A DNA stretch of 64,000 nt. Origin: Mesodorylaimus sp. YZB2_4 (taxonomy: Eukaryota; Nematoda; Enoplea; Dorylaimida; Dorylaimidae). Both the position numbers and the translations under genes were made by a program. Shown one piece after another: positions 1-62,893 of the stretch; position 1 is the first letter of the stretch, and each line of letters starts with the position of its first letter. Location of the stretch: NCBI GenBank assembly GCA_030248295.1, contig JASANH010000367.1, positions 85,982 through 149,981 on the forward strand, read 5' to 3'. Under the pieces are notes generated by a model. It was not told the origin of the DNA. It did not search any database and was given only the letters and a program-made list of their open reading frames with translations.

Positions 1-897
1 AAACATACGTCATCCTTCAGCGCTTCATGGCTATGATTTTATTGCCCGATGCCTTGTGCACTCTGGCTTAGGGCTCTCGTTCCTTTCTACGGATATCTTG
101 TATGTCTTTAAATTCAAGAATCCGTTCAGAAAGAGACGTGATCGAGCCCTAAAACTATCTCTACCATGATCTTCAATGAAAAGAAACCTGGAAATCAAAG
201 AGGTACGTACGTTTTCCGACTTTTTTCATTGATTAAGAATCTGATTCCCTTATCACATAAACGATCCGCCATACTGCCCCAGTAGACTACTCCGGGTTTC
301 TCAGCATCTTACTGTACCCTGCGCACAAATGATCGTAGCAACTGGGAAGGAACGAGAGGACGGAACGAAAACGTGAGAAAGCAACGCGTAAGTTGGTGAG
401 TGTAGAATCATCATATTTCATTTCTGTGCAAACGCATATGCGCACTAGGAGCACAAGAAGCATAAAACACAATACACATGATACTTAAATGTGGAAGCGC
501 GAAAAAACAATATCAAGTCTCGAAATCATCAAAGCATCATACTTGCTAAAAATGAACACAAAATGTGATATCAAAACGCAAAAATGTCTGAAGAGGATTA
601 CGCGAATTTAGTCTACAAAATCCTGAAGCGGCACTGTGTTAAATTTAAGAAAGCAATATCATTGGGCAAATATCCCATAGCGTAATTTAGAAAACACAAA
701 GTTCTGTCGATAGGATTGCAAAAAAGGTCTTAGCACAATAAGATGATGAGCCTTACATGTTCTTGCACTGGCACGGTTACAGACATGAAAACGAATCAAC
801 TCGTCAGAAAATAATGCAATCCATGATAATACTTATAAGATTGACACAGCTTCAGACGCTTTCTCGAATCGCTGATTGACGACCAGCTAGCTCGGCT
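1..897. other. Intergenic, no supported gene
   Basis: I see no convincing exon, RNA gene or repeat family here. The only open frames are below 65 codons. The stretch contains one TACTGTA heptamer (310-316). Confidence 0.5.
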
Positions 898-1293
898 TAA
901 AGCATCCTCATACGCGCACGTGAAATCATTTAGATACAGCCGAAGTGCATAAAACTGCGAACGTTCCAATTTAGAAATATCAGCTTTTAAAACCGGATCC
1001 TGGCATACAGAGCCATATTAGAAAACAGAACAGCGACATGCATTATAATATGATCCTCAAACTTCTGAATGCGTGTGCCTTCCAAGTTTACGTCTAAGCG
1101 CACCTATCAAGCCATTCGACTTCTTAATGACATCACCCACGTGCTTAGAAAACTTCAAATCAGGACTAAAAATAACACCAAGATATTTTACCTTATCTTT
1201 CTTTGCCTCTTCCAGACGTCTAACTGGGAAAAACAAGGCGGTATCATCAGCGAAGGCTTGTAACAGAGATGCTGGGAATCGACAGGGCGGCAT
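898..1293 (-). mobile_element. LINE reverse transcriptase fragment
   Basis: Read on the minus strand, the frame from 1293 contains the reverse-transcriptase active-site block FADDTALF, followed after a short internal deletion by KYLGVIFSPDLKFSKHV and a Lys/Arg-rich segment. This order is typical of the palm and thumb of non-LTR retrotransposon polymerases of the Jockey/CR1/RTE type. It continues downstream to about 898, where a second, more decayed copy of the post-RT segment lies. The reading frame is broken, so this is a dead 5'-truncated copy. Clade cannot be fixed from so short a piece. Confidence 0.75.
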
Positions 1294-1297
1294 GCGT

Positions 1298-1516
1298 GAA
1301 GAAGTCGATGAAGGTTTTCGGCAACTTCAGCGACATGAGATCACTATCGCGAAATACTGCAAATGTGTGCCAATGCAACGTAGCTTTGCATAAAGCATCC
1401 TCATACGCGCACGTAAATTTGTTTAGATACAGCCTAAGCCCATAAAAATGCGAACGTTTCAATTCAGAAATATCAGCTGTTAAAACCGGATCCCAGCATG
1501 CAGAGCCACATTCCCA
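1298..1516 (-). mobile_element. LINE RT C-terminal fragment, second copy
   Basis: The minus-strand translation from 1516 starts with a tract resembling the conserved ECGSACWDP motif that follows the RT thumb in LINEs. It continues with FYGLRLYLNKFTCAYEDAL. The same tract recurs in decayed form at about 898-1040, so the two blocks are copies of one LINE segment in direct orientation. Both are inactive relics. Confidence 0.65.
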
Positions 1517-2124
1517 AACAGAGCGGAGACATGCAAATCGGTATGTACTGTACGGTATGTGCTGTCCTGCACACTAAAAAACTACTGGCGCCTCCCTCTG
1601 GCACAATATAGTATATGATGGGTTCTTATGACTGAGGAAAGAGGCAATCATGCCAAATTATCACTACAGTCCCCAAACTACAAATTACATACTAGTTTTT
1701 GGTATTTGTGCTTATCATTATGGCTTTTATTACAGCCACGGTAGATACGGGTTGCAGAGAGAAAGAAATAAAATCCGATACGTGGTTTGTTCAACAGCTA
1801 AATTTGCGCGTAAAGATAATGACTGGAACGCTCAAAATTTATCTGTTTTCCCCTTGAAGTTTCTGCCTGATTATTAGCTTTATGTAAGACCATGTAAGAC
1901 CGTGGCATATGTGTGAGAAGAACTAAGAGCCTTATTCTCAATTTTGAAAGTAACCGTTGAAATTAACCGTAAGAATTAAGAGCATCCCAATTTGGAGTCC
2001 TGCTTGCGCGCAAAATGTCCTTCATCAGCGAGGAACAGTCGGGAAGAGTCTCTCTGTTACCTGTCCTACCTAAGAAGCAATATCTCGTTTCTTGCAGAAT
2101 TGAAATGATTTTTTTTAATTTCAG
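1517..2124. other. Intergenic, no supported gene
   Basis: No recognisable coding or structural feature is seen apart from one TACTGTA heptamer at 1546-1552. A 75-codon open frame at 1650-1877 has no domain and no splice or promoter context. Confidence 0.4.
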
Positions 2125-2364
2125 CGAAAAATTTTCTGGGAATGGGAAAAATTGATGTCATGAGGCTCAAACTTGAAGAGTTCGCGGAGCGGGCCATGTT
2201 ATGGAACCAATACCCTGGACGCCATAGTCTTACGAGATATAGGAGGCGCGATAAGGCTTGCGTGGAGTCCGAAGAGGAGAGTGACTTGTCGTGGGAAGAA
2301 AGAATAAAGACGAGGCGTGGAAAAAGTTTGACGACGAGGAAGTCGAATGGATCATGTTGGAATA
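2125..2364 (+). pseudogene. Acidic protein family, copy A (last exon, frameshifted)
   Basis: An acceptor (T-rich tract then CAG) ends at 2124. The exon carries an ATG at 2142 and encodes a highly charged protein with LEEFAERAMLWNQ, PGRHSLTRYRRRD and an acidic run ESEEESDLSWEE. A second copy of the same exon lies on the minus strand at 16518-16770, with the same acceptor context. In copy A the frame shifts by one base after SWEE. The ending seen in copy B (EVEWIMLE then stop) is present here only in another frame, finishing at 2364. I do not recognise the family. Two copies in one 64 kb window on opposite strands suggests a multicopy gene or an element-borne gene. Confidence 0.55.
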
Positions 2365-2871
2365 AGCTTGTACCATTTTTTAATGAGGGCTCCGAACAGA
2401 GGGTAGAATGGAATCGAACATCTGAAATTATTGCACGTCTTGTTAAGATTTTTGCATGCGGACAAATTTAAGATGAAATATTTCTTATTTTGTTGATAAA
2501 ATTCGGCTTGAAAAACCTGCGCTGGGGAGGTAGACTGAGGTCGTCGTCCATTTCTATAGGGTGGGAGAAGTGGTCTGCATGTGTCAGGGGGTCTACCGCG
2601 AGTTTTTGCGGTCCACTGTTCCTTCATGTTGCTCTCCATATTATTCCCGTTTTTTTTTTGTTGCAACAAGATGAATTCCTTTTTTTAGTGTTTTGAAGAT
2701 TTCCAAAACCTGGGATTATTACTGTATTCGTTACGTTTATGAGGTATAACGTGACTATATGACTGCATTGTTACAATGTATCGATGTTCGATGGCGTCTT
2801 ATCTCGTAGTTTGGTGACTTTTTGAACCTTTCCCTCCCCAAATTCAGGGATGCTGACGATTCGTCGCTCAG

Positions 2872-4265: not shown

Positions 4266-4385
4266 TCCACCGCCAATGTTTCCGCCATTTGCTTAAAAAC
4301 TATAAAATATTCTTATCAAAAGGGGCTTTTGCTGCAGCATGATCTATACTGTGCATGTGCAGTCGAGCTCAGGCTTTACCGTATG

Positions 4386-4767: not shown

Positions 4768-4946
4768 GACGTGTTTCTATACAGTAGACAAGTCCAAACA
4801 TGTTTCTGGCAGCGTACTGCAACATGTATAGTAATAGCGTGTCTAGACAGTCATGGTGTCTTATGACTGAAATTCAACCAGCTGTCAAAGACGACACTTC
4901 CTAAAGTATTTAAGTGACTGGCTGAGTTAGTCTGTCAATGTTAAAA

Positions 4947-5464
4947 ATGTCGTCCCGTCGTCTCACTGCCGCGGACCCAAATGCTTGGTACTGCTCTATT
5001 TGTTGCGAAATTTTAAGTTACTCAAATCGATCTCGGTATGTTCTGGCAAGTCGGATGTAAATTACAGTACTTTACACCATCTACTTTCTTTCAGGCATAT
5101 CAAAACACACCGAACATGTTCCGGTTGTGGTGAAGTTGTTGGCCCGCGCCACGTTTGTCAGTCGTTAAAGAATCAGGCCCAGTTTCACCCGCTGTACATC
5201 GATAAAGAACTCAAGATGTACGTTCTGGGCATCTTACCAGAAGGATGGCCCGCCAAGCAGGAAGAGGCCACTCATCAAAAGATCACTCCAGGGATGCAGG
5301 AGCCTCCCACAATGGTCGTTGCTGAAGGAGAAAATGGAATCGATGTGGCTGGTACAAAAATTTTCCCAGTGTCTCACATCGTCAATGCAAATCAAGTTCC
5401 GTATCCTCCATCACTCCAGCCTCTATCGCGGGAGGAAATCAAGAAAAGGGGGACGTTTCTGTGA
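4947..5464 (+). CDS. Polinton zinc-binding protein, two exons
   Basis: Exon 1 starts at the ATG at 4947 (an in-frame ATG also at 4938) and ends at 5035 with donor GTATGT. Exon 2 runs from 5095 (acceptor TTTCAG) to the stop at 5464. The joined length is a multiple of three, about 152 residues. The N-terminal half has paired cysteines and histidines: YCSICCEIL, then HIKTHRTCSGCGEVVGPRHVC. This suggests one or two zinc-binding modules. The C-terminal half is Pro-rich with no known domain. It is the first gene of the Polinton plus-strand block. The intron contains a TACAGTA heptamer at 5063-5069. The function is unknown, and nucleic-acid binding is only an inference. Confidence 0.6.
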
Positions 5465-5697: not shown

Positions 5698-5703
5698 AAT
5701 AAA

Positions 5704-6776
5704 ATGGAAGAGTTGGAGAATGTGTATAAAACTCTAAATTCGAAAGATGCATTTGGTGATCAAGACAAACTTACGCGTGCTGTACCCGGTTTGAGTCGCA
5801 AACAAGCAGCTGACTTCCTGACGACTCAAGAGTTGTATCAACTGACTAAACCACCTCGTTTGAAATTTCCAACTAACCGAATTCATGCTCACAAAGTCAA
5901 TGAAATTCATAAAGCTAATCTATCCGACTTGACAATTTATCAAGATGACAATGACGGATATAAATTCTTACTTTTCATTATTAATTCATTTTCAAAAGTT
6001 CTAACAGTAATCTCGCTCAAGAATAAAAGTGAGGTTTAGACTCAAAATTCTTTCTGATAAATTCAAATTAAAGTTTCGTACTTTAGGCAGTGATGCGATG
6101 CATGAGGCATTTGTGAAAGCTCACAGTGATCCAAAGAGTAGACCGTTGTATCTCCATACGGACAAGGGAGTAAGTTTACAATACTTTTTTCAAAAAAAAA
6201 TTTTACGTTCATATGAACATTTTAGACTGAATTTTACAATTCGAAAATGAAGAAGCTTTATAAAACTTTTGGTATTGTTCGCCACTATTCTACTTATTCA
6301 GAAAAGAAGGCATCTACAGTAGAGAGCGTAAGAGTGTGAAGCATGTTTCGACTTGTTCATAAATTGCGTTGCCATAGGTTCAAAGAACATTCAAGTCAAT
6401 GCTGATGCGCTATCTACTGGATCGAAAGACCAAACGAGTCATTGATGTGTTGCAACTTTTGGTTGAGTCATACAACCAGTCCTATCATAGAACGATCGGC
6501 ATGGCTCCAGCCGACGTCACTGACGCCGACGCAGACGTCATTCGGGAAAGGATTCGCCCAATAAATTACGCCGTCCTTAAAATACAAGTGGCAGTCTTTT
6601 CAGGTGCTTCTTACGAACCAGAATTGCAAAAGGTGCCAGCGCCGACAGAGTATAGAATTGAAAAAGTTATTCGCCAACGTGAAGGCAAGGACGGGAAAAA
6701 GCAATATTTGGTTCGATTCTGAGGATACGGTCTCGAAGACGACGCCTGGATATCTGAAGAAGATTTCACGGCGTGA
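5704..6776 (+). pseudogene. Polinton integrase (rve) with chromodomain, four exons, one stop
   Basis: This is a DDE-type integrase that would insert Polinton DNA into the host genome. Exons are 5704-6028, 6087-6169, 6226-6327 and 6378-6722. The three introns (58, 56, 50 bp) have donors GTGAGG, GTAAGT, GTAAGA and acceptors ending TTAG, TTAG, ATAG, and the phases agree exactly. Catalytic landmarks lie at exon joins. The second Asp (HTDKG) ends exon 2 and the catalytic Glu (STVES) ends exon 3. Exon 4 holds the C-terminal LLVESYNQSYHRTIGMAP. A chromodomain begins at YRIEKVI, is interrupted by TGA at 6720-6722, and its conserved ending (GYGLEDDAWISEEDF) follows in the same frame to 6776. This is the family of the nematode F54H12.3 protein. 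The stop implies decay or read-through. Confidence 0.85.
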
Positions 6777-7525: not shown

Positions 7526-8809
7526 TCCCTTCGAGGGCAAGTGTGTGAAAAAAGCACTGGCTGAAACGCGTTTGGACATTATACCATGCTCAGTTCCTCT
7601 TCCAAGTTCTGATGTAAACTCGAGTATAGATTTCCATATCCCCATTGTCGAAGGTTACTTGACTGATTTAAGTCCCACTCTGCTCGAAGTGGAATTGAAA
7701 ATTAGTTACGTGGAAGAAAATGTGGAAGATCGTTCGATAAAAATGAATGACAAGGTAGGATAAGTCAATAATGTTTTGGCCAGTTTATTTTCGAGTGCAC
7801 AAGTTCTGATCAATAATACACTGATGGTTGCTCCGAACGGCGCCCTCCCATTCATCAGCTACAATTCGATCATATCCAATTATTCGTACGAAACTCGACA
7901 GTCATTGCTGAAAAGTGCCGGATGGATGGACGATACAGCGGCTGATATTGCCAAGGGTACAAACAATCCGAATGCCATTGAACGTATGGAACAATTCTTG
8001 CTCGGTATAACTGGTCGTCTGATGGACATTTTGCCAGTGAATTTTTTTAAAATTAGGAGATATATTATGCCCAACGCTGATATAATTTTAAAATTGCATA
8101 GGGGTAGGCCAAAGTTTATAATTCTGTTTTCACAGGAGAAACCGCCAGCAAAGCAAAGACAGTTTAGTGTTAGCATCGAGAAGGCCTACTTGCACGTCAA
8201 GAGAATCAGACCGCACGATGACACGATGGCAGTGCTGCATCGCACACACCTGCGTACGCCGGCACAATACGACTATTTCGACACCCAAGTCAAGTCAATT
8301 CTATTGGCACCCAAGGTGTACAGCCTCGATGCAGAGGTCTATCAGGGTTTGTCACCGAGTCAAATGTTTATTGTGATGACAAAACAGCCGATGGCTGGAG
8401 CAGTCAAGGAGTACCCATTCTATAATATGCATAACAACCTCCAGTCTGTTTCACTGGAGAAAAATGGTGAAGTTGTGGGGGAGAACTACCAGGCAGATTT
8501 TTCAAAGGGTGATGTTTCGCGGTTGTACATGTCCTACCTGAGATCGACTGGCTGTATTTTGGATCGTGCTGGCGTAAGTTTTCTCGATCAGACGGCTTAC
8601 TGTAACGGATTCGCAATTATTGGCTACAATTTGGAAAAGTGCGATGAATGCACCTGCTCGTTGCATTTGCCTCGCGAGCTGGCTACGTTTTGTCTTCGTA
8701 TGGATTACAACACAGCAGTTGAACGTGATTACACTGTTGTGGTTCTGGTGCTTTTGAAATTTAAACGCACTCTGCTGTTGTATTCTGACGGTAACGTGTC
8801 AGTTCAGTG
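7518..8809 (+). pseudogene. Polinton major capsid protein (double jelly-roll), one stop
   Basis: One frame runs from about 7518 to the stop at 8809, interrupted only by TAA at 7761-7763 directly before VNNVLASLFSS. The N-terminal part carries the first jelly-roll strands (IDFHIPIVEGYLTDLSPTLL). The part after the stop contains VNNVLASLF, a long central region and the C-terminal block (QADFSKGDVSRLYMSYL). The family is that of nematode protein F54H12.2, the predicted Polinton major capsid protein. No ATG opens the frame. An acceptor-like TTGGCAG ends at 7517, so the start may be spliced. About 430 codons is close to the usual N-to-C extent of the core. Capsid assembly is the family role. Confidence 0.8.
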
Positions 8810-10314: not shown

Positions 10315-10473
10315 ATGAAACCACCAATACCGCTTAGCTAACCTTCGAAAAGTAAAATGTGTATACCAGATATGTATTTCTCACATGTCATTGCAGTTGT
10401 AGTTGCATTTGATGTGAATAAAGATAATTTTAAATTTTCCTTGTACAGTAAAACTAATAATATGAATAAAATA

Positions 10474-15113: not shown

Positions 15114-16517
15114 TGATATCGTCACATCACAGCCGCTTACGGATCGTGCTTGGCGAGTATTGATTGATAACTGTCACTTCATAAAAAGTGTGGATGGAAT
15201 TCCCGATTATCTGAGATACGAATTGAGGAGAAAGTGTTTCTGGGTTATTAATTGATTGCGATGATGAATTATAAGGGTTATGATGATGAATTTGATATTT
15301 ATGATGCATCGTCGGGAATTCTAACGATACTTGAATGTAATTTGGTTTTTTTATATCGTGTAATTCGAAGTTTTCCTGGACAAGAAAAAAGTTGACAGCC
15401 TAACTAAGGTGCCTATCGCATCTGATACGTTCAAAATTAGCGCCTAGTAGGTCGTCTTTCCCATACTGTAAGGCGAATAGGCTGCACTCCGAGGTCACGG
15501 CTCTAAACGCTTTGCGCTGGGCGGACAGGCCGGACAGGCGAACAGACTGGACTGGCGAACGCCCAGACACAATTGATGTCAATTACAAATAGGAGAAGGA
15601 ATTGAATTGTGTGAAAGAGTGCAATCAAAGCTCACACTGCGAAACGCTACGCAGAGAATAGACGCGGCAAGGCCATGGCTGGTCCACAGACGCAATGTGA
15701 CTGGGGTTATGGTCGTTTGATCTCACCGCATAATCGGCTTGCATTGCAACAAGGAGGGGAGAAGTTGAAGAAACATGAACAAATGATACAGTAGATAGAA
15801 TGGAGCTGGAGCGCACTACTGTACGTACGCTGTCAAAAGATCGAACCTTATCATGCGCGGAGCCTCAAAAACTTTTGAACGCTTCAAACCCTTTTCTGCC
15901 ATCCTCCACGAGCGAGAACACAAGAAAATTTAATCGCGGACAAAAGCAACGGGCCGTAGCCAGAGCCGTTTGTCGCAGCTCGACTAAACTGGAACTCCAC
16001 TAAAGCTCAATAATGAATGGGTAGATGTCTCGACACGTGACTAGCGAGTATAATGTTATTGGCTTAGAGGTGAGGCCCCGCCTCCTAATTCTGATTGGTC
16101 GGCAGCGCGGCAGCCAGCTGGACGAAGCACCGCCAGCTGCTAGAAATTTAGCTGGCTTGCAGTCCCCATACAATTAGCAGTCACAGCTAAGTATCTAAGT
16201 TGAAGAGACTAATTATAAACTTTAAAAAACTAGCAGGCTCGGGTCAGTGGACGCGTGACTGTCACCTGGCAAGTCTTCAACAGGCCTTCTAGCAAGGCGA
16301 TAATGACGAGCTGGCCACCACCCCATCACACGGTACCCATGGAAAAAAGACTGCCTGGCGCGTATAAAGGCGGCAATTCGAAAAACACTAGCTTTACGTG
16401 CATTTACTGATAGTTAAAAACCCAAGCGTTTCATTACACGATTTAAAAATGATTATAAACATTGTAACCTCTACAGTACCCTCTGTTGGAAGCCCTCATA
16501 AAAATAGTGGTCCAAGC
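15114..16517. other. Intergenic, no supported gene
   Basis: Only short open frames are present. Three TACAGTA/TACTGTA heptamers fall at 15464, 15787 and 15817, and one more at 16472. Confidence 0.4.
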
Positions 16518-17123: not shown

Positions 17124-19592
17124 CTCTAGAACTGAATTGCGGCTGACTGTTGAGTGATGCTTCCCGCATGATTAATTGTCCTTGGCCCATCATTCCGGAA
17201 GTGATTCCAAACAGATTGTGGATTGCTATTGATCCAACTCTTCAAGAAATACGCAGCAAAATTACGCAATGGCAAAAAGAAGGAAAATTCTTCCCTGATG
17301 ACCCTTGCGCGCTCTTGACAGCGATCACCTCAGGGAGGTGACCTCATAGTCGGGACAATGCGTGCGCGCTCTTGACTAAGACCCAACTAAAATCGATCCC
17401 CCTTATCTGTGTTAAAGGGGGATTCAACAATTTAAAGATTCCTAAAATAAAAATCGACACACGAAGTACAGTAGTCGTTCTTACCTCTTCATTTATTAAA
17501 AAAAAGTGAAATTTCTTATTCCTTAATGTAATATTGGCGATGATTTTGCCTGCAAAAAAGACATAGTAAGAAGCAGCCAACAAAGAACGAAGATGCTGTA
17601 CAGTATCTATTTTGAATTCGCTCCACCCAGTCACCCTGAGTCACTCAACAAAGTATGTACATCGGCTCGACACCTAATCGCGTATGGGAGGCTGGCGCCC
17701 AATGGACGTGTACTGTACTTTACAAAATTGCCGGAAAATATCTCGTAAAATTACTAATATTTAAATCATGAACAATGGATCCAAAGACTCCTCGTCAGGT
17801 GACTCAGATAAATGATATTCAAGTGTCTCAAAGCACTTTTCATCTTTTGGCTTGTCTTTAAGTATCTGAGGCGTATAAACAATTTTAGTGCTTGGTGCCA
17901 GTATTTGTCGCAAAATTAGGTGCCTTGATAACAAGCCCTGCAGGCGTGGGCGGGGGAGGGTCTCATGGGCAAGTACTCTCAGGAGCGAGCGAGTATATCT
18001 CTGGCCTCCCAGTCCAGCGTCCTACAAGCCTGCCCTGTTTCAGCTGTCACTATCCATTATACCACTCCGATTGCCCAGGAGAACTGGCCTGCAGCTAAGA
18101 CGGACTTTGGAAAAAACTCTATGTACAGTAGCAATTACAGTATATGTAGCATGTTGGACAATATTATTTGCAAGCAGAAATAGCGCAAAAAAATTTTGAT
18201 GCGAACTCGGACGATTCAGCAGTCGGATGACTGAAGACCGGTACCCATCACTTCTAGACGGGGGATCACGGCGTGGATAGGGAGGGTCAAAAAACGCGTT
18301 TTTTTGGTGACGTATGGAACTGAGAAGTCAGCAAACAAAAAAAACAGCTACTGGAAAAAACTTCCTCCTTGTAATGAAAATATACCTTTCCTTTAGCCGA
18401 AGTCTCGTAAGACTATACAGTAGATGGCAATCGGTGCGAGAAACAGGGTCGTGTATTAAAACAGAATCAAAGATCACGCTTCGAAACGCAACACGTAGAC
18501 GGGCTGGTCCACTGACGCAATGGGACCATGGTTATGGTTTATTGTTTCGCAAGCGAGGTCAGCTATTGGGGACACTGCCAGTTCCGCACGCGCTATTGTT
18601 CCAGTGACCTGTGTCCGCAAGTCCCGCACCCGTATATGCTTTCTACATGCCCATACGTTCTACATAACTATAAGCTCTGTAGGGGGGCCATCCATGAGGG
18701 TCGGCTTTTAGTGATGGCACTTTCGAATCTCGATCTCGATTTTTTTGGTCTCTCGATTATCTGATTCACGATCTCGTTTTTCTGGATCGAAAATTTCGAG
18801 ATCTTTTTTTAGTTCATAGAACAGGTTTCCCTTTTGTAAAAGAGTCCACAAAAGAGTGATGATTGCTATGCACACATTGCGAGGTAATGCTAGCTGATAT
18901 GAACGCGGAAAGCACGCAAAGTTTATAGGGGATAGAAGAGAGTTGTTAGAGTGCATTTTTTGGGAAAACTGTTACTCGTATTTCGGGTACTTCAAAGTTT
19001 TTAAGTATGGCTTCTCGGAGAACCACAGACTAGGATTGATACAGTTACAGTAACTGAAACTGAATCTACTCGCCATACCTGAATTCAACTTTAACTAAAT
19101 CTTTTTAAATCCAGTTAAATTCTCCATCATAAACTTGGTGATCTTTTTCCGACTATACGTGGAAAGCTCGAAAACAAAAGAAAAGAAATGCAATTGATTG
19201 CTAGTTGGAATCCTGTTGATCACGAGTTGGAGGCGTACTGTATTTTGTCATCCTTTTGAATAGAAGTTTTTTGTTTTAAATTTGTGGGCTGAAGCCTGTT
19301 TTGCCACCAGCCAGCCAGCATTCACACCTTATAAGGGGCTGTGCGTGGACAAGCGCACAAAGCAGCGTCCCTCTGTGTGTCTCCACCAGAAGTAACTCCA
19401 CTCGAGGCCATCCTGGACTGGACACCGACTTCCTCAGACGATTGCGGGTAGGGTTTGAACCCTGCTGCTGTTCGATTGTTGAGACTGCCTCCTCGTCTGG
19501 CTTTCGTCTCTTCACTCGGACCATCTACAGTAGTTGGTACCGGGTGACGGCCTAGAAAGCAAGCTCAGCGAGGGTTTATAATTCGCGAGCTG
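17124..19592. other. Intergenic, no supported gene
   Basis: Nothing clearly coding is seen. It holds nine TACAGTA/TACTGTA heptamers between 17467 and 19532. A T-arm-like palindrome (AGGGTTTGAACCCT, about 19450) may be a relic of a tRNA-derived SINE. Confidence 0.4.
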
Positions 19593-20245: not shown

Positions 20246-20402
20246 ATTGAATACTAAGAAGCATTGCGTGGCTGGCAATAGACGTGAACCAATCGATAGC
20301 CACACTAGCCAGAACGTTTGCCTCGTATTAGTCGCGAGAACGAAAATTCAGCAGGCACTCGGTTTACTGTGCGATGATGCCAGCGTATTGTATAGTACAG
20401 TA

Positions 20403-20580
20403 CAGTCAACCTCGGATAATTGCAACTGCTCCGCACCCCAAAACGAGTTGCAATTAAACAAGGTTGCAAAGTTGCAACTCATTTTGGCGTCTGGAGCAGC
20501 TGAAATTATCCGAGGTTCAAAAAAACGTACGCTTAACAATGGGGGAATGGGGACTTGTTGCAATTATCCAAGGTCGACTG
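20403..20580. mobile_element. 178 bp MITE with Tc1/mariner-type ends
   Basis: The ends are inverted repeats of about 24 bp, CAGTCRACCTYGGATAATTG at each side read inward. They are flanked by TA dinucleotides (20401-20402 and 20581-20582), the target-site duplication of Tc1/mariner transposons. The element has further internal inverted blocks around ATTGCAAC. It carries no gene and would depend on a transposase elsewhere. Immediately to its left, TACAGTA (20396-20402) shares the TA of its target site. Confidence 0.75.
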
Positions 20581-20589: not shown

Positions 20590-21299
20590 TCAGTGGTCAA
20601 AAATGCTTCAATAGCTATATTATCACTACCACGACCGCACCCACAAAAAACCCACACAACCACCACCCAAAAACAAAAAAAAACCCCAAAAAAAAAAAAA
20701 AAAAGCTCTTATGCCCACTTGAGGCTCGAGACCTTGCCATGCTGAGAAGGTAATATAAGTGCGCTTGTGACACAGTTACCACGCACGTTTGCGCTGGTCG
20801 CTTGAGACAATAGTGTCTCGCGACTTTGCAAATTATGCCATGACAATTACGAAGACAAGACGGTAGATATGCGGTGTCTTTTGATCGTGCGAAAATAGAT
20901 TGATTACCATAGGATTTGTTTCAAGTGCGGGGGCCCTTGACAGTAGCGTGCGCAAGACCATGCAATAGAACCACAATACCGGTACGACGAAAGATGACAA
21001 TATGTCTGCGGAAAACTATGCGTAAGAGAACCACGATTATGTAAATTTTGCGACAGCGCTCATAAGAATTAATAGATGGGACGATAATCCGATTTCGGCG
21101 AAAAAGAAAGGAGGCGGATAGTAAAAAGGCAAGTCAGCTGTTTTATCAACGGCAGCAATAGAAGCAGAATCGGCGCATCGTGCACGAAGCATTTTACATA
21201 AGTGTCAAGCAAAGGTTAGGATATGAAAAGCTGTAAACATGTACAGTAGCCAGATTTTGTTCTACAAGCAAGGTCAGCGTTAGAATTTCTCATTCTTAA
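20590..21299. other. Intergenic with low-complexity tract
   Basis: 20636-20704 is a C/A-rich low-complexity tract ending in a run of A. There is no gene-like signal. Confidence 0.5.
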
Positions 21300-21499: not shown

Positions 21500-24429
21500 G
21501 TCAAGCGGCTGATAAAAATTAGCCAGAACAGAGGTGCCCGCAGTACTTGATACCATTGCTCGGAACCAGAATACTAGTTAAATGAGGTACCTTGGCAAAT
21601 TTCCCCATTTAACGCGAGGGTACTATATGTTCAGCCCCAAACTTTGAGTAAAAGTTTTCGTTTAAGAAGGTATGAGCGAAGTCCTCTACGTGGTTAACGC
21701 AACCCAAGTTTTAGTTCAAGAAGACGTTGATGGGGAACCTTGGCCAATTTCCCCATTTTAGGGAAGGGTATTGTATGTGTTAACCTATTTCGTTTGCGCT
21801 TTTCCCGCAAGTGCGAGAGTATTCATGGGCTTATTGGAGAGCATTACAGTAGCTGAGTGTACCCAGGGCATGTTCTTTTTCGCAACAAGATTTTCGAGGA
21901 GAAGATTAGCATCAAATACAGTGTATAGTGTACGGCTCTCAGCTTCGATTAATCACACACAGTGAATATAGCAGTTTCTGGGATCTGAGCAGTCATAAAA
22001 GTACTGCATAACTTATATGCAGAATCAAGTTCTTACAAGCTGACAGTTGCTAGAGCCACTTAACCAGCAGAAGATTGTCGTTGAGTTTTAGGTGTTTAGA
22101 GTTTTTGACTTATACAGTTGTACAATTGTACAATTGACTTATACTGTACAATTGTAGCTTCTCATTTTGGATTTCGATTCCTATTCGGCGAGTGTGGTAT
22201 AGGCGTTCAATATTTTCCGTTAGGCGGCGGAGCGCAGCCAGAGGGAGTTGCGAAAGGCCGCGCAACCTATTCTGATTGGATGCGGTGGTACTATACATGT
22301 AGCCATGATCCATCACGCGTACGCTTCCCTCACATAAAAGGTCGCTTATTACTCGCTCACTCGCACATTCGAAATTCTTGACTCTGATCAGCATGGCAAA
22401 CTTAAAGAAGTTCTCGAATATTATGGGAGTGTTCCTGAGCAAGATTTGGAGATGTGAAAGAACAGGTGAGTGTCCTAAAAAATTTATCTTGCTCCTATGC
22501 TGACTGAAAAATGTCTTGATCTAACTGACTATCTTGTGTTCTGCTGATGGTCTACTTATGTTCTACCGAATGGTCAACTGATGACCAATAATAAGGTTCG
22601 CGAAAGTGTTCCATATAATAATTGGCCTGTTCTCATGTTTCAAAAAGCCAATGTGCACCGATGTCCGTTTTCGCGAAGTGTTATTTTATCAGCGGACGTA
22701 TACTTCAGCATCTGTAATTCAAATCATTCATGAGTCCACATTCGCCCAGCGAGAATAATGCTGCACTGCAGAAGTGAGAGCATGTGATAGTATAGGGTAT
22801 ATACACAGTATTAGCAGCCAAAATCAGCGTTGTCGGGAGAACAGCTTTTTCCTAGATCTGAAGGACCTTCACACTGTTTGGGCAAGTTTTGAATTAACCT
22901 TTTTTCCAGGTGATTTCTAGGCAATCTGAGATTTGAGAGATCCTTAGGTCATCTTGAGATTTTAACGGCTTTTGCATTGGCTTTCTCGACCTTGATTATT
23001 TCTTGCGGGTGGCCCGAAGATTGCCGAACTCAGGGCTCAGGGGTTTGTAACTGAGGGTGCTCCCTCAGATACGAGTTCGATGATACGACGAGCAGTAGGC
23101 AATAGGAGATAGCAAACACGATCCATGATTTTCTCCCTTATTCACTGCTGTGTCAGTCGTTCCAAGATAGTACTGTCTGAATATCTGTTTCGCTTCAATT
23201 TAGGGCGAAAGGAGGAGGAATGGGAAGACGTTTCGGATGATTGGTCGGCCAACTAAGGTAAGTGCTCCGCAGAATCTTTTTCTGATGCGCCTATACTAGC
23301 CAGAGGCCTGCATTCAGTGATATTGCATTGTCAGTTACCAGCCTGGTCCAACATTGGGTTTCAAAACCCTACCCAAGCCATTTTCGGGCTTTTGGGTTGG
23401 GTTGGGTTGGGTTTTTAGAGAGAGTGGTTTTGACTTGTGGAGGTTGGCCGCTTTCAAGCCCTCCAAGAACAAACCTTTTTGCTACAAGGGGTCAGGCTTA
23501 TTAGTCAGTGGAATTTGGTTCCCACAGGGGTTTGAAGCCACGATGTTTGTTGGCTTCGATGTGTAATGGTTTCGAGTCGACAAATCATGGTGTGATGAGA
23601 GCGTACTACACAGACGTCGGGCGCACAGTTCAACATGAGATCATTGCTGTGATCGAAGACCATGGCCGCTCGAGTGCTCACTGCCTTTTGTTAGTCTAAT
23701 TCTACATGTCAGTGTCATTGTGACATAACTGAGAAATCGTCTGTCAGCAGATGATATTGAGCTTTGATCATTTGCTGACTCAGCCACTAGGAAGCACTAG
23801 AATGCCCAATTGATATTTCCCTTTTGATTCATTCCCTAAAAATGTTCTTCGTATACTGCATTTCTTTGTGGTATCCCTCGCGCATGACTCCGAATAACGC
23901 TCTAAATGAAGACTAGGCTTAGAATAGCTACGAATCACATCTAGGCCAGGGCACAGGTCCACAAACGGCTCATGCTTCTCTAAAATAAGTCATCGACATT
24001 TCCGAATGTAACAGGGCTCACTCAAGACGAAATATAAGAGATCTAGGCTCTTAAACTTACAAGTTTTCAGAAACAGCATAGACTGGTAAGTGTAAGCGAT
24101 TTCCTACGAGTCAGCAGGAGGTTCGTAGGCTTTGCAGGGCCCTTTTCATTTGCTTAGCTAATTTTTAATGAAACTTCTGTCTTTTTGTCGTTTGGTGGGT
24201 CATTCAGTATGATGGCGGGAGACAAGCATTTCTTTGCTCGAGGAACGAGGCTTGTAAGATTTCAGTGCCGTGGTGAAAATGGATCCTCAGCTGGGGTCAT
24301 GTAATTTGAAACTTGCAGCCCGAAAAGAGAATTGTCCTTGAGATATGTGCAGGACCATTTGTTTTTGAACCTCGGGTTTAAAAACCGCGGGACCCCAGGT
24401 TGACCATCTCTTTTTGAAAGAGTATGAAA
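21500..24429. other. Intergenic, no supported gene
   Basis: It includes a small AT-rich inverted cluster at 22115-22157 (repeated TGTACAATTG) and a (TTGGG)n-like tract at about 23394-23416. TACAGTA/TACTGTA heptamers fall at 21845 and 22142. No exon was recognised. Confidence 0.4.
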
Positions 24430-24875: not shown

Positions 24876-25420
24876 GTTATTTCTCGGACCATGATTGGTC
24901 CGAATTCGGACAAGACGTTGAAACGTGTTTCAGCGTAAATGGATTTTGTTTTGGGTGGCGGGTGCGGGGTCGGCGCGACTACAAGCCGCCATGCTTGGAG
25001 GTAGGCTGCAAGAATCGAACTCCTGGGGTGGAATATAAATGCTGTTCTGAGCACAAGCCACCATGCGAGTATCAGGACTGTCGTACGCGAGTTGCCAAAG
25101 CCTCACACAAATACTGTAAAGCACACTTCGATAAGATGGTGAAAAAGCTGAAGAGATGTCATCTAGTGAACCCACTCCCTCTCGAGCCCAAATATTCCAT
25201 GCTAAGTCCGTGTCTGCTGGCGCGTTTGGAGCTCCGAGCTCGGAGGGCATATACGAAGAAATGGTGTGGTGGTGTGACGGACCCGGGCCACGCTTACTGG
25301 GAGAGATGTTTAGAGGAACTAAGTCAGAACTGCGATCATGATTGCATATGCCAGTTCAAGATCTCGGCTGACATGTGGGGGTCTAAGGTTTACAATAAGG
25401 TACGGGTACCGTACGTTTGA
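24876..25420 (+). CDS. Cys/His-rich zinc-binding protein, paralog 1
   Basis: An exon opens after a T-rich acceptor (TTTTAG, ending 24875) and stays open to 25420. It contains an N-terminal SDHDWSEFGQ acidic segment. Then come two tandem units of the form C-x4-C-x(10-12)-C-x2-H: PPCLEVGCK ... CCSEH, and PPCEYQDC ... KYCKAH. The C-terminal helical part has more cysteines. Similar units occur at 43928-44150 and 25625-25778. The spacing suggests a zinc-ribbon-like fold, distantly like the C..GC...YC..H repeats of plant and fungal proteins. Function is unknown. A TACTGTA heptamer falls in the coding part at 25112. Confidence 0.55.
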
Positions 25421-25778: not shown

Positions 25779-26375
25779 CTGTACGCAATGTATGTGATAT
25801 CTTCTGTATATACTTCATTTTGCACGAGTATCTTTTTTGCACAACATACTTGCTGCACCTGTGATGTACATTTTCTGATGTGGTGTATGTGCTGTAAAGA
25901 ATTGTATTTTATTGTACAGTAAGGTATTGTATTCTCCGCATTGTAAATATGCATCAGATTGCAGGCGTGGCGGCGTGGCGTGTTTAGCGAAGGGTATGAA
26001 CAATTCTTTAGACGGAACGATTTCGAGTATGACTGGCCCATTCAAAGCTGGGACAGCATGTAGGAAGAAAAATATGACTGTGAAATTGAATGAATCCTTG
26101 TCAGATTACAGTGTTGCTCGCTTGCTTATCGGCTTTCAGTCTCGACTCCAGTTCGAGTCAAGTCACTGATGGTGCGAATGATATGGCGCAAACGCGCGAC
26201 CATTAGTCATATTTCCTTATCCGATTTAGACTCGACTTCATGTCGTCGCAGTCTATGTAGATGTCTACCTCAGACAAAACAGGCAGTTACTGCACGCTAA
26301 TTCGTACTCGCTCCTCCTACAGGCAGCCATTGCGGTGGCTTCATTTCTTTTCGAATTCTTGGTCTGTGCTGTTGG

Positions 26376-27435: not shown

Positions 27436-27617
27436 ACACGGAGGAAGAAAGTGGATGTAGGTGGATCAGAGTGTAGTTGCAGCTTGTACTAGATAAACGA
27501 CTATACACAATGCCCGCTTAATTCAGACCAATTCCTGTAGCATACTGTATTTGGCGATCGTCAAAAAAAGTGACCACTCGCTGCAAAAATGGTTGGTCCT
27601 GTTTCATTCGTGACCAC

Positions 27618-32026: not shown

Positions 32027-32686
32027 CTACCTGTCACACATACACACACACACGCACATCTCTCTCTCCCTCTTTCTGTTCTGCATTGATTCGTTTCTGC
32101 CAGGATCCCTCCAGGAGGTTCTATTCTCAAAGGCTTTCTCGTCTTGCCACATTTTGTCGCGAGATAGTCTTCGATTCGCTGTCCACTCTCATCAGTTGCG
32201 TTAAGTATGTTCTTATCGATGACCGAACCTACTGTACACAGGTGAAATGATGTATATCTTTATAGTTCCTTGTGTGGATTGTAATCTTTGGTGCTATACA
32301 TGAGTATTTTACTGATCTAAACAAAATGAGATAGTATGGTACGAAGGCGTTTCACAGTCTTTCCAACAGTGCACGCATGAGGTATAGTAGTGCAGTTTAC
32401 AAAGGTGCTGGTACACATCAATGAAACACTCACGAAGATTATGCAATATTGTTTACAACGCTTGTACTATTATGAAACTTGTTGAAAGCGCATCAGTGAT
32501 GCTCCTTTTTAACACAGCTCCCTCCCATTTCTTACTTCAGATTCAACAGACGGTTGAGGAAGGAATTTCGACGGTTTGAATTCATGCCCGCGGACATATT
32601 TGTGCCTCCTGTTGCGCTACTACCAGCCACCTCCTCCGCCACGGCTTCCTCGCCAGTCTCAAGGTGGCAATATACTTCTTGATGCG
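32027..32686. other. Intergenic, no supported gene
   Basis: A short CA/TC microsatellite occurs at 32036-32075. No gene-like signal. Confidence 0.4.
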
Positions 32687-34072: not shown

Positions 34073-34305
34073 TCGGAGATTTCATACCTACAATACGTCG
34101 TAAACGAGAGCACAGATCAGAATACAGGACTGGATCTTGTAGCTGTAATCAAAAGTACAGTTGAGCAAAAGAGTGCATGAAGTGTTCTTTCGGAGCGTTC
34201 ATACCTACAGTAATTCATAAAAGAAAGCGTAGTTTAGAAAATGGTGTTAGCTCCATCAGCTATGAGAAAAGTACGGTTACTTGTGCATGAAAGGTGCATG
34301 AAGTG
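34073..34305 (+). repeat. Diverged tandem duplication, about 117 bp unit
   Basis: Two adjacent copies share TTTCGGAG..TTCATACCTACA near their start and GTGCATGAAGTG near their end, with much substitution between. Confidence 0.55.
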
Positions 34306-38232: not shown

Positions 38233-38598
38233 TCAATGGGAATAAGCTTCCAACTCGGTAAGTGCTTTGACGCTTGGCCACTTATCCGATGACCGTTGGG
38301 TTTGGGCGCGTTGACGAAGACTTGCTGGAAGGCGCGGAAGACTTTGCTTGGACTCTGCCACGCTTTTCTTTTCTTTGGCTCCCACTTTACACGGCGGGAT
38401 AAGCGAACAACCTCTGATCCACCTTGCGAGCACTTTGACGACAACCTGAGCAGCTTTGACTTTCCTGGGAGGCAAGTGATGAGTCAATAGCAGAGGCATA
38501 TTCGACTGGACGAACAATTTTCTAAAACCAACCTTCCTACAGTACTTGACTGCAAAATTCCGATAAGGCAAAAAAATTGAGATTGCATACACGTTCAT
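38233..38598 (-). CDS. Hypothetical basic protein
   Basis: The ATG at 38598 opens a 121-codon frame (MNVYAISIFLPYRNFAVKYC) with a basic centre. A second frame from 38444 to 38160 is equally protein-like, so a splice or frameshift may join them. The upstream region has an inverted CCAAT (ATTGG at 38695) and GTGTAC motifs like those ahead of 40447. Function is unknown. Confidence 0.35.
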   Translation of the reverse strand: MNVYAISIFLPYRNFAVKYCRKVGFRKLFVQSNMPLLLTHHLPPRKVKAAQVVVKVLARWIRGCSLIPPCKVGAKEKKSVAESKQSLPRLPASLRQRAQTQRSSDKWPSVKALTELEAYSH

Positions 38599-44229: not shown

Positions 44230-44640
44230 GTATTTTCAGTCATAAGCTAGGTGGTATGCCTGGTGCCCAGGTCCGAGTGGGCTCTCAGTTCGACCCAAAA
44301 ACAACTAAATGACCATAGGAAAATAATCTAGCATACGTAGAGGCTTTATTTGAAACTCTTCTCCTGAAGAAAAGTTACAGGAGGAGATTAGAGGAAGAAT
44401 TCTATTTGGCCATCCTGTGGGCTCTGGGCACAACCTCTCGAAGTGCATATAACCCTATAATAAAACTTGACCTTCCGATGAGTACATTTTTCAACACTTA
44501 AGTGAGTCGTGCCCACTCGCATCTGTGATCTATTGTACCTTGAGAAAAATATTCAGAGATACCAGGAGCAACTTTTTAGCATGGTATTAAAACTGGCATG
44601 ATCTACTGTAATTTGTCCACATTTTTTGATTTCGCTGTTC
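44230..44640 (+). mobile_element. tRNA-derived SINE family 2, copy 2
   Basis: CATAAGCTAGGTGGTATGCC (A-box region) and CTCAGTTCGACCC (B-box) begin a body matching 24430-24795 in reverse orientation. It has the same position relative to its neighbouring Cys/His-rich gene. Confidence 0.65.
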
Positions 44641-46896: not shown

Positions 46897-47595
46897 AGCC
46901 GCGTATACTGTAAGGCTTTGTGTTTTCCACATCATAGATTCATATGCGTCCGCTACAAGTACAGCACTTTATCTAGCAGTGACATGACAATAGCTCATCA
47001 GATAAAGCGAGCAATGGCAATAACGGACGCCTCAGATATGCTCACAAATATATTTATCTGTCAGACAGATCAGACACAAGCGCAAAAAAAACCCGTGAAA
47101 CTGCCTTCAGTGCCCATTACGCAGATTCGACAAAATGCTCGCTTTCAGATCATGTTTTCGTTTTTTCGAAGGCGGTTGAGCTAGCTTCGTGGACCTCCTT
47201 CCGTATGGCAGCTTTTTGGAACCGCGAGTCAATCCAGGACGGCGGCGCGCAGTGCTAGTCGGCTGGACATGAATTTTCCCACCAGAACGTACACGTTTTC
47301 TAGATGTCGATCCAGCGGTGCGAAAGAGCGTCGACAGTTGGCTGGCAGTGACCATTTTACTCGCTCTTGCAAAGAATTTCTCCAAGCCGACCATGAGGTT
47401 TGGGTCGCTTTCAAACTCACTCACTTTCGACGCAAGATCGAGGAACTTTTCTCGAATTATATTTCGCGGGATCACAATATTGGTCTAAATATTTCACATT
47501 CAGCAATATAGCAAAGTACATAAAAGGGGCCTTTTCCTGCACCCATGACCACTTTAGAACCACCCCAAGACACTGCAACATGCTGTACTCCCTAG

Positions 47596-51115: not shown

Positions 51116-51886
51116 CTATCCCTCGATCATTATTCCTGCCTGCTTACTCTCATTCGGATTTTGCTGACGATAGCAGGCCCGGCAGAGAGCCCTGTACCTA
51201 AAAAGGATGCACGCAAGTTAAGAAGCAGAGGGCTGCACGGGGGAGATTTTGCTTACTTGTCCGGACCCTCGACCATATTTTCGGTGTCAGTCTTGTCGAT
51301 TTTGTCCGTGAAGGTGGCTCTTTTACCGCACAACTGACACACAGCCTTCAGCTTGATCACCCTCTCCGATTTGGGCATTAGGCGGAGGATTTGATCGAAG
51401 CCTACTTGACCCATGGCCTGATCTAAACTGGCTATTACGACGTGAACTCCCGCGTAGGCCAGACGGTCGGAGACCTCGCAAATGTTGTTGAAAAAGTGCC
51501 CTAAAAGAGAGCATAGTCTCCACGAGCTACAGTATGCCTTTTCTTCCCTAACGGGACAGGTACCTTCATCTATGCAGACCACTTCGAATCGCTCGAGATC
51601 TGCCACTCTCTTGCTTAGAGTTTCTGTTTCCAGATGGGCAGTCGCCACCTGACCCGAGTGGGTCACCGCTTCGCCCCCGCTCGTGTACCTCGTGTCGCTA
51701 GTATGCTTCACGAGGAGGCATCGCTTTCCAGCGATTCGATGCATATTGTATCTTCTTAATAGCTCGCCGGTTTTGCCGCTAAAGAAACATTTCGTCTATA
51801 CAGCCCACTGTACATCAGACTATGTGCTACTTACGCGAACATACAGTAGGCCCGATGATGAGAGTGATCGATCCAGCCATTCTCAT
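51116..51886 (-). pseudogene. Thymidine kinase (TK1 type), four exons, P-loop frame break
   Basis: TK1-type kinases convert thymidine to dTMP. Exons are 51886-51835, 51778-51564, 51500-51257 and 51197-51116. The introns are 56, 63 and 59 bp with GTAAGT, GTACCT, GTAAGC donors and TTTAG acceptors. Exon 1 gives the first strand and Gly-Pro of the P-loop (SITLIIGP). Exon 2 opens with GKTGELLRRY and includes TAHLETETL and the IDEG motif that joins FF across intron 2. Exon 3 has the CQLCGK zinc pair and VEGPDK, and exon 4 has the CRACY zinc pair. Joined exons total 593 bases, two more than a multiple of three. A TACTGTA heptamer (51842-51848) adds five bases inside the P-loop and explains the break. 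A TATA box (TTATAAAAGG) lies just upstream. Host or viral origin is open. Confidence 0.8.
51842..51848. repeat. Putative transposon excision footprint in TK
   Basis: TACAGTA on the plus strand lies between the Gly-Pro codons and the rest of the P-loop. Removing CAG plus one TA copy (5 bp) leaves a single TA and brings the two parts into the same frame. Confidence 0.6.
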
Positions 51887-52483: not shown

Positions 52484-52863
52484 GGCATGCGCATCGCCTA
52501 GTTGATTTGTCAGCCGATTATATATCCTCCCGCTAAACTTGTTGATGACTTGGGCGTGAGCGTGCGTGGCACGGGCGCATTTGGGTCGACCGTGTCGTGA
52601 GATAGGCATACGTCCTCGTCATCTATGAAGAGGGTGAAGTAAAGCGAAAGTAGTGAACTTTGCTTGACCGAAACTCTGAGTTCCTGATTAGGATTCTCTT
52701 CTGCTCTGCGGCTGCGGCATCTAGATAGGGTATTGTGCTACAGTAAGTCGCTATGTCCCGAAGTCAGACTGTAAAACAATGGATAGCGAGCTAGTAATAA
52801 TTCAATAATTCACTAATAATTTACTAACGCAATTAAAATTAATCTACTAATTCCCTACCAATC

Positions 52864-56631: not shown

Positions 56632-57180
56632 TTTTTTGCTTCCCGCTAGAAGCAGACATCGCCCAGTGTGGTTGGGGTTGGGGAAGTGTGGTTGTGACAA
56701 CACGGCAGTCTGGGAGAGCGAAATCACGAAAACTTGGTGTGGTGGTGAAAGCACTTCCACAACTGTTGTGATTGTTGTGGTGTGTTTCGTGCAGAGATTT
56801 CGCAAATCTCTGAAGTAACCACACCTGGCTTGTTTCCAAGATCCATCGGAGGGAAAATTTTTGCAGGGAAAACGATTTATGTAGAAGAAAATGTGCTCTT
56901 TCAGAATACCGTAATGATTTTTGCTGAAATTGCCGATATGATTAATTATTTTGCTCCGAGCGAAGACACTGTCGCTGGTGCGTTTTCCGGAGTGCATAGA
57001 TAGACCTACGCCTGATTTCAAAATCTTGATAGATTGGACCATTCGCGTAGATACTGTAGCTTTGGCGACAGATCAAGCATTTTTCAGATACGCTAATTTT
57101 TTTGCAGGATTTGAGTTTTTGCCGGTTTAAAAATTTGGTGGCTCTGACTTTTCTTTCATCTATTCCAACGAAATGCAATC

Positions 57181-60600: not shown

Positions 60601-60604
60601 TGAT

Positions 60605-61292
60605 GCTCCGGGGTCTTTTGAAAATAATTTTTAAAAAATTTCCTAAGTTCGAAACATCGCCTAAATTCTAATTTCCAACGAAAATGAATAAAAATCACCA
60701 TAATCGACGCAGAAAAATTTTCTGAATTTTAAACAGTTGGTTTCGGTCGACTCCTTTGGCGATAATGGGTAATTAGGTCCAAATATCGACTAAGGGCGTA
60801 GCGCACACTTTCAAGTCGGACTGATCCCACTGGAGTTCGACATAACTATACTTAAAACTACTAGATTTTAGTTCGCAGATTCAACTCAAGTTGGCTTGTA
60901 CTGCGTTTTTAGAATACCGACAGTATGTCAAATGTTTGAACGGTTTGTGTTTGCAAGCTGGCAAAATGCAGCGACATATAATTTGTTCCATGCGGCAAGA
61001 AGCAGTTGCACTCTCGGACTCTAGTGGTTTTCAGTGATATGATGTCTGGCATTTAGAGCAAGATACCGTTGCTGTTGTCGCGTCTGAAAGAAGGATGGCG
61101 CAACGGTGTCATTGGCTGGCGAGCTGTAACCGCTTATTTGTAATGTCATGTGATGAGCAGGTACCAATACTACGTTCAACCCCTGGGTTCACTCTAATTG
61201 GGTTGCCTTATCTAACCTGGTCACCCTGACCAGTGGGTTGTGAGCCCCTGCTCGATTGCACTTCTACCTAACTTACACTGCCACCGGCCTTA
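60605..61292. other. Intergenic, no supported gene
   Basis: No recognisable feature. Confidence 0.4.
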
Positions 61293-61512
61293 GCGACCAC
61301 GCGCCCACAGCTTTGAGACTGCAACGGAACGAGGTGCGCAGCCGCTCGCCTCTACGTTGGGTGGCGCTTCGTAGTTTACGAGTACTTTTCTTCATCAGAG
61401 AGCCCCCTATATCTAATGTACGTATATATCTTTTGCTGCTAGTTGTGTGCGTATGCGCACCTCGTTCGTTGCGGTCGCAAAGCAGTCACAGAGGACGCAT
61501 GGTCGCTCAGCC
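61293..61512. mobile_element. MULE-related foldback element
   Basis: GCGACCACGCGCCCACAG...GCAACGGAACGAGGTGCGC on the left is mirrored by GCGCACCTCGTTCGTTGCGG...CGCATGGTCGC on the right, with about 100 bp between. The arms resemble the inner part of the MULE terminal repeat at 46792 (GCGACCGCAACGAAATCTAGG). It is probably a short non-autonomous relative. Confidence 0.55.
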
Positions 61513-61898
61513 CATGTCACTGTCCGCTGTTCGGCTGATTAGTATGAGACGACGCACTCATCGCCTTTATTTAGGGTTTGGTCATAAGACATAAAAAAAA
61601 ACTTTTCGAGCTTTTCAGATGTTGTATGTATACAAAAAAAAGGATAACGCTTTCCCATTTGCGCAGAGATTGGCAAGCCTGAAAACTAACTTACAAGGTT
61701 GATTGGCGCAACCATGAACTTAGCTTGCCGGGTTTTCGTCAATGCAAATATTAGGATCCACAGAAAAAGAAACTGCCAACTGCTTGATTTGCTGCTGCTA
61801 TCTTTGGCTATACACCTCGATAAATATTACCGTTGCTGACTATCGGGTATTAACTTTCATCGGGACCAAATACTTGAAAATTTTGACAGTTCAGATCA

Positions 61899-62893
61899 TC
61901 ACAATTCATAGTCGGGGCCAATACCACCATGCAGTTCGTTTAGCCAGGCAAAAACGTTGACGATTTTGTTGGGTTTGTTCACACTGGTCCAAACCCATTG
62001 AGCATCAGAAGCGATCTCGATAATTTCACATTGTACCATTACAAGCTGATTTGGGTATATCATAACTAAGACATTTCCATGGCAATCGGTACAAACTAGG
62101 CTGTAAGTACTATAGATAAATATAAAATGACTTAAGTAGACATTGACAAGCTAAAAAAATGTAAAAATTACTTGTCAAGTTATTCACCTAAGGATTATCA
62201 AGTTTGTTTTCAAACTTGAAAATGTTCTTATCTTTGATCAATGATAGCACTTATATTCGGTTGAACATGTACATATTTCACCGGGATAAAATTGATTTTG
62301 CGCATTCAAGTTGAGCCTTGCTCCTTGGCTATCTCTTACTTTAACATACAGTATTTGCATCCGATCTGCTGACATTTTTCGACATAAGATTGGATCTTTG
62401 AATACTCCTCCATTTCAGGGACTTTGCAATATCTTAGAGCGTAGATAAGCGACTTTGGACTCGGATAAAATTTGGCTGGACAAGGGCAAAGATGATTGAC
62501 GTTTGCTGGGTGCCAGAGGTATATGTGAATTTCCCTCCCGGTGAACCTTTGCAAGTTAGCTTTTGATCATTGAGGCCAGTTACCACAGCTTTGATATATA
62601 GTAAGTGTTAGCCCGGCAGATATTCTCCCGAAATATGAAAGTTCTGAGGTCAGAATTTTTCCCTCAAGTCCACCAACGTGATTTCTTGCACATGCCCAGT
62701 TTTCTGCTTTCCCATGCCATCCCTGCTGATCAAAAATCCATATATTTTTAATTTATCAACAAAAAAAAGTAGTAGCTCCTTCCCTAACCCACGCCTGTTG
62801 ATGATCCCAATCAGCAGGATTTTCTCCATTCGCATTGAACGTCAGTACACGCAGGCCGCGTTTGACCGCTTGAACAAAGAAGTTCGATTTTAA
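61899..62893 (-). pseudogene. Possible beta-propeller-type gene remnant
   Basis: Minus-strand segments look like coding exons. At about 62890-62760 there is NFFVQAVKRGLRVLTF, then NPADWDHQQAWVREG. At 62554-62336 there is IHIYLWHPANVNHL. At 62100-61899 there is LVCTDCHGNVLVMIYPNQLV then WVWTSVNKP. Repeated Trp and short beta-strand patterns suggest a WD40-like propeller, but no clear repeat was established. Splice sites are plausible at 62100 (acceptor TTACAG). A TACTGTA heptamer lies in the middle segment. Treat as tentative. Confidence 0.3.

Follow-up and report, generated by a model that had tools for sequence, protein, structure and literature searches.

The stretch analysed here (the window) is 64 kb of contig JASANH010000367.1 from the nematode Mesodorylaimus sp. 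YZB2_4, and it contains 41 copies of the heptamer TACAGTA or its reverse complement TACTGTA. Most of these heptamers are very probably inherited excision footprints of cut-and-paste transposons of the Tc1/mariner class (IS630-Tc1) with CAG...CTG ends. A first-pass annotation of the window had already proposed that they are Tc1-type excision scars, and this is supported by the excess of the heptamer, by flanks that resemble a transposon target, by alternation with a TA that is 5 bp shorter, by an inherited centre letter, and by CAG-ended elements with a transposase frame. In the mechanism that we propose, the element would insert at a TA, preferably within ANNTANNT, duplicating the TA. The transposase would then cut the element out with 3-nt staggered cuts that leave the last three nucleotides of one end at the site, and end joining would resolve the resulting A:A or T:T mismatch to give TA-CAG-TA or TA-CTG-TA, an empty site lengthened by 5 bp. 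The donors were presumably resident CAG-ended families or extinct relatives of these, and the repair route would be the one known for Sleeping Beauty.

The window belongs to a eukaryotic assembly of 145 Mb in 1,067 contigs; L-numbers denote other stretches of that same genome. An outside sample was taken as 20 ten-kb stretches, at one fixed position in each of the 20 largest contigs (200 kb), giving 264 kb when pooled with the window. The list of 41 sites in the window is complete. All of the sites listed in the first-pass annotation are present, with one start off by one (34206, not 34207). The excess is also real, and is larger than the fourfold estimated there, since the chance expectation is lower than the 10-11 assumed: 100 dinucleotide shuffles of the window gave a mean of 4.38 (sd 2.21, maximum 12), and an order-2 Markov model gives 6.7. 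An order-5 model gives 22.7 and absorbs much of the signal. The heptamer ranks first of the 420 canonical heptamers with the same base composition in the window, and by z-score it tops all heptamers both there and in the 20 outside stretches, where 95 copies were found against 21.1 expected. Comparison with shuffles and with heptamers of equal composition, which the annotation had suggested, thus places the heptamer well above expectation.

In the pooled sample there are 136 copies against 27.8 expected. The excess is tied to an A or T centre, the G/C-centred forms TACCGTA/TACGGTA numbering 7 in the window and 24 against 14.5 expected in the pooled sample. Extrapolated to the assembly, 136 copies in 264 kb correspond to about 74,800 heptamers against 15,300 expected, a surplus of about 59,000, with a density that ranges from 1 to 11 per 10 kb. 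Beyond the heptamer itself, no common sequence is visible among the flanks of the 41 window copies. The heptamers are therefore not one repeat family, and a single shared repeat as their source is ruled out.

If the heptamer is taken as a 5-bp footprint within a TA, then the bases outside it represent the former target. At the 136 sites there is an A at -3 in 71 and a T at +3 in 59 (chi-squared 43.3 and 24.8), the next-largest value being 9.3, at -1. Among the 48 words of the form TA-Nk-TA with at least 15 copies, only the heptamer has a flank p value below 0.01 (2e-12); some low-count words come near its flank fraction, for example TACGCTA (0.47, n=17, p 0.013). Collapsed to a single TA, the site would read ANNTANNT, a target of the Tc1/Sleeping Beauty kind. 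ANNTANNT is the target of Sleeping Beauty; the string itself was absent from the papers listed in one literature search. A passage of PMC7913693 gives the palindromic target ATATATAT for ZB, Sleeping Beauty (SB) and Bari, which agrees with the flanks seen here at both the -3 position (A) and the +3 position (T).

The most direct evidence comes from paralogues. Relatives of the region 17.4-22.3 kb and of other window regions occur elsewhere in the genome at about 75-98% identity, and part of these were compared. At least one aligned relative was available for 27 of the 41 sites (22142 being uninformative and 16472 aligned on one flank), and 14 sites have none or only poor ones. Six window sites alternate with a bare TA, and at a seventh the heptamer is in L043 and the TA in the window. 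The sites with length-variant or decayed relatives are as follows.

5063..5069, + strand: probable TACAGTA scar; TA in L084, heptamer kept in L075, L078, L081, L087 and L090; L093 too diverged.
15464..15470, - strand: probable TACTGTA scar; L061 and L062 read CATAAGG against CATACTGTAAGG in the window; L063 too diverged.
16472..16478, + strand: probable TACAGTA scar; heptamer in L060, L065 and L032, TA in L059 and at window 2404; the window copy lacks the adjoining ~402 bp, so that the right flank alone is homologous.
2404..2405, no strand: unscarred TA in an inverted relative of the 16472 locus; GAGGGTAGAATGG at 2399 against GAGGGTACTGTAGAAGG in L060.
17711..17717, - strand: probable TACTGTA scar; TA in L033 and L044, heptamer in L029, L030, L032 (twice), L038 and L042; L031 reads TACTTTA.
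20396..20402, + strand: probable TACAGTA scar abutting the left TA of a miniature inverted-repeat transposable element (MITE); L040 exactly 5 bp shorter (TACAGTC for TACAGTACAGTC); doubled end in L043 and L046.
21242..21248, + strand: probable TACAGTA scar in the window copy only; TA in L039, L043 and L045; in L048, too, the site is 5 bp shorter, and its TA is mutated.
21199..21200, no strand: unscarred TA; TACTGTA in L043.
4815..4821, - strand: probable decayed scar TACTGCA; intact TACTGTA in L074, L077, L080, L086, L089 and L092 (6 of 7 relatives); deleted in L083.

When all the compared sequence was scanned by script, 49 heptamer sites and 102 other TANNNTA sites could be scored, of which 8 and 1, respectively, had TA alleles. 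On inspection, one of the eight (L032:1252/L034:768) was dropped, because a length change in an adjacent TATG stretch had produced a false call; L044 has the heptamer there. Paralogues with a plain TA, for which the first-pass annotation had proposed a search, therefore exist for 7 heptamer sites out of 49 (window 15464, 17711, 21242 and 5063 are examples, and five of the seven have the heptamer in the window), each plain-TA allele being exactly 5 bp shorter; among the other TANNNTA sites the figure is 1 of 102 (Fisher p 0.0017). That one control site is TAATGTA, which lies at the MITE's right end and differs from TACTGTA by one substitution. A further 14 TANNNTA words that lie within 14 bp of a heptamer or overlap one were set apart, and 5 of these have a TA call. 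The distinct clean 5-bp indels of the form TA-NNN-TA are TACAGTA, TAAAGTA (beside heptamer sites) and TAATGTA (at the MITE end). At 44604 the caution expressed in the annotation was justified, in that the diverged sister TAATGTA differs by substitution and not by loss of 5 bp. Gap-pattern searches for sites 5063 and 6315 matched the window copy only, since they required exact flanks, and so say little about relatives.

Candidate donors are present in the genome. The element at L073:424-1795 has inverted repeats CAG...CTG between TA and TA, and encloses an open Tc1-like transposase frame of 349 aa that matches HTH_Tnp_Tc3_2 and DDE_3; exact ends of this family occur 6 times in the genome. L072 contains a second Tc1-like frame, for which element ends were looked for and not found. 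The MITE that the annotation had cited at 20.4 kb, with CAG...CTG ends and TA targets, is present in the window:

20403..20580, no strand: MITE of 178 bp with CAG...CTG ends between TA duplications; its end has 98 exact copies in the genome.

A scan for inverted repeats gave 81 candidates, 4 of them with CAG starts and, of these, one (the window MITE) in the window plus L009-L028, numbers which are too small for a good estimate of resident copies. CAG-ended elements therefore exist in this genome, each family of them being at most a candidate for the maker of most of the scars. It is worth adding that L064, aligned to window 16190, carries a 445-bp insertion with inverted ends ACAAGGGAACATCG..., absent from the window copy, which is another TA-associated MITE.

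It is possible, if rather doubtful, that the same mechanism acted mainly on donors of the pogo/Tigger kind, that is, on the family of the 20.4-kb MITE (whose form suggests a pogo/Tigger-like element), and not on Tc1-like ones. The 98 exact ends of the MITE family against 6 of the L073 family argue for this, as do two scar-like 5-bp additions at the MITE's own TA ends. Against it, transposases with DDE_3 (PF13358; at least 126 matches, with 150 of 222 candidates scored) outnumber those with DDE_1 (PF03184; at least 16 matches), and a passage of PMC9976928 describes mixed footprints of 0-4 bp for Passer, a member of the pogo superfamily.

The heptamer could also be a functional motif such as a binding site, kept by selection and with no link to transposons. 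It is near-palindromic and dispersed, and it is rarer in long open reading frames (ORFs), as a regulatory site would be: ORFs of at least 180 codons, which make up 38.9 of the 264 kb, hold 9 of the 136 sites (0.23/kb, against 0.56/kb outside them). A motif of this kind would explain neither the symmetric A(-3) and T(+3), which flank the heptamer at a distance that fits a TA target, nor the alleles in which a bare TA, exactly 5 bp shorter, takes the place of the heptamer, and we consider it very improbable.

Also very improbable is the suggestion that a common word has lost 5 bp by deletion between its two TA repeats, and that the differences are not insertions. The two TAs do provide 2 bp of microhomology, and direct repeats can lose what lies between them, but other TANNNTA words have the same microhomology and showed TA alleles at only the one site in 102. 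At 21242 and 15464 the insert is in the window copy alone, so that a gain is the simpler reading than a loss. Deletion also leaves the excess of the heptamer and its flank preference unexplained.

In pairs of paralogues, which are not independent of each other, the heptamer was identical in 772 comparisons, with 188 showing other changes and none showing a flip between CAG and CTG. Each new excision would have its centre letter set anew during repair; the scars are therefore older than the duplications and belonged to the germline, being inherited and not somatic. Ciliates have TA-bounded internal eliminated sequences with TA boundaries and a similar terminal word, and TACAGTA resembles the ends of such sequences. 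A programmed somatic excision of this type, remaking the scars each generation in an assembly of mostly somatic DNA, would suit tens of thousands of scars alongside few resident elements, but it is rejected as scarcely plausible because the centre letter does not vary between paralogues as fresh mismatch repair should make it, and because decayed inherited forms occur, for example at window 4815.

Several observations weigh against excision footprints as the source of most heptamers. Resident CAG-ended copies look few next to some 59,000 scars. Among the compared paralogues no locus was seen in all three states (empty, occupied and scarred), and none of them has a full element occupying a scar site. 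If the set-apart words are included, the controls rise to 6 of 116 and the contrast weakens to p 0.05; the five words responsible adjoin heptamers and share their indels. Only -3 and +3 of the six flank positions fit a target of the ATATATAT type, the inner A/T positions not being enriched in this genome and -1 favouring G rather than A. The 19 words one step decayed from the heptamer together number 628 against 584 expected, a slight surplus, and those other than TACCGTA have no clear flank signature. This surplus is below that of a long steady state, so that the field may be young or the expectation too high. In favour of excision footprints, a rough estimate of rates agrees: the 5-bp gains between paralogues predict 0.23 scars/kb at steady state against an observed excess of 0.41/kb, an estimate based on 25 event-pairs with 7 distinct strings, the pairs being non-independent and at least one a likely artefact.

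Double scars and other candidate footprint words were also counted. The double scar TACWGTACWGTA occurs at 1,636 places in the genome against 31 by the order-2 Markov model. The reversed TACWGTACWGTA pattern, used as a control, is nearly as abundant (1,539 places against 52), which indicates that the order-2 model is a poor null for 12-mers of this kind, and the double scars are not relied on here. By hand count, 24 of the first 50 double-scar places among the matches listed are of the inverted forms TACAGTACTGTA or TACTGTACAGTA; the 4 matches to the reversed control in 264 kb are every one a direct repeat. A 5-bp tandem duplication cannot make TACAGTACTGTA or TACTGTACAGTA, so that the inverted forms are not obviously explained by the control. 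In one diverged pair a doubled scar faces a 10-bp gap (L005:812), where the relative reads TG and not TA. Tc1 and Tc3 leave 2-bp footprints, TACATA/TATGTA. In this genome TACATA shows a mild excess (151 copies, 106 expected), with a flank fraction of 0.33 for TACATA/TATGTA (p 0.018). The 4-bp indels observed sit in tandem repeats of TATG and are therefore not diagnostic. The word TACGAGTA is dispersed (24 against 5.5 expected in the window plus L009-L028; TACAAGTA, 18 against 6.9) and might be a 4-nt footprint left by a different element; there is no significant flank preference, and no alternation of TACGAGTA with TA was seen among the distinct paralogue indels.

The type of footprint is already known. 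According to a passage of PMC3432063 the typical Sleeping Beauty footprint is TAC(A/T)GTA, and it arises because the donor site keeps the 3'-overhangs, which are then joined (PMC7827188). The match to the heptamer is complete, with its TA flanks and A or T centre, the difference being that those footprints were made in an assay, whereas the scars here are inherited, decayed, duplicated and counted genome-wide. Tc1 and Tc3 use the same class of reaction but leave two bases where three are found here, and in ciliates excision is somatic and programmed, unlike the inherited centre letter described above. A limited literature search found no description of a genome-wide excess of footprints. What is new, as far as such searches go, is a field dense enough to lead a genome's heptamers.

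When a cut-and-paste element has left, its excision normally can no longer be seen. In the sampled genome no heptamer is more over-represented than the scar, and past excisions can therefore be counted, dated (by decay and by the age of paralogues) and mapped without intact elements, so that the genome carries a countable fossil record of transposon excisions. How many times DNA transposons have jumped over the life of a lineage, and how fast, are hard to determine, and would become a k-mer measurement in any genome with CAG-ended Tc1-class elements. A note of caution also follows, that a short enriched word need not be a regulatory motif. We mention, as a speculation that is probably wrong, that this lineage may have an unusually excision-biased or host-controlled, perhaps domesticated, Tc1-like transposase that clears TA/CAG elements from the germline with far greater efficiency than they persist there, leaving scars in excess of residents by 1-2 orders of magnitude and a genome in effect swept clean.

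The remaining heptamers of the window are as follows.

310..316, -: same in L058; L059 4 bp longer.
1546..1552, -: same in L059.
2720..2726, -: six relatives, same or substituted.
4780..4786, +: seven relatives, same or substituted.
6315..6321, +: six relatives, same or substituted.
8598..8604, -: within ORF 7764-8810 and read as codons; may be chance coding sequence.
10444..10450, +: present.
15787..15793, +: same in L061, L062, L063 and L066.
15817..15823, -: present, without aligned paralogue.
17467..17473, +: nine relatives, same or substituted.
17599..17605, +: unchanged or substituted in nine relatives.
18124..18130, +: adjoins the TATG length variant that misled the scripted comparison.
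18136..18142, +: present.
18416..18422, +: present.
19046..19052, +: present.
19236..19242, -: present.
19526..19532, +: present.
21845..21851, +: present.
22142..22148, -: L039 and L048 have a larger gap here, uninformative.
25112..25118, -: diverged relative with substitutions.
25915..25921, +: present.
27543..27549, -: present.
29851..29857, -: same in L049.
30376..30382, +: same in L049.
32230..32236, -: substituted in L050.
34206..34212, +: same in L051.
35355..35361, -: within a young repeat; same in L053-L057.
38538..38544, +: present.
44604..44610, -: diverged sister TAATGTA.
46906..46912, -: present.
51528..51534, +: within a thymidine-kinase-like ORF.
51842..51848, +: present.
52739..52745, +: present.
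57052..57058, -: present.
62347..62353, +: present.

Close to the 17711 site, at 17686-17689, the window lacks ~141-160 bp that are present in nine aligned copies. The thymidine-kinase-like ORF lies at 51253-51795 on the - strand (E 3.1e-31), and a MULE transposase ORF at 49252-50229, also on the - strand (E 2.8e-8). At 3859-6700 and 7764-9513 a repeat family that has dozens of copies lies next to several ORFs, one of them P-loop ATPase-like (a weak match to AAA_22); this is possibly a virus-like or Polinton-like element. A 290-aa ORF at 27618-28490 (- strand) matches the Pfam family BDV_G, the bornavirus glycoprotein (E 9.5e-7), and is likely to be an endogenous viral relic. Elsewhere in the genome, L022 has a collagen-like frame with the appearance of a nematode cuticle collagen, and for the DRG2 gene in L024 the closest named protein by identity is that of Soboliphyme baturini (82%), with insect proteins reaching 80%.

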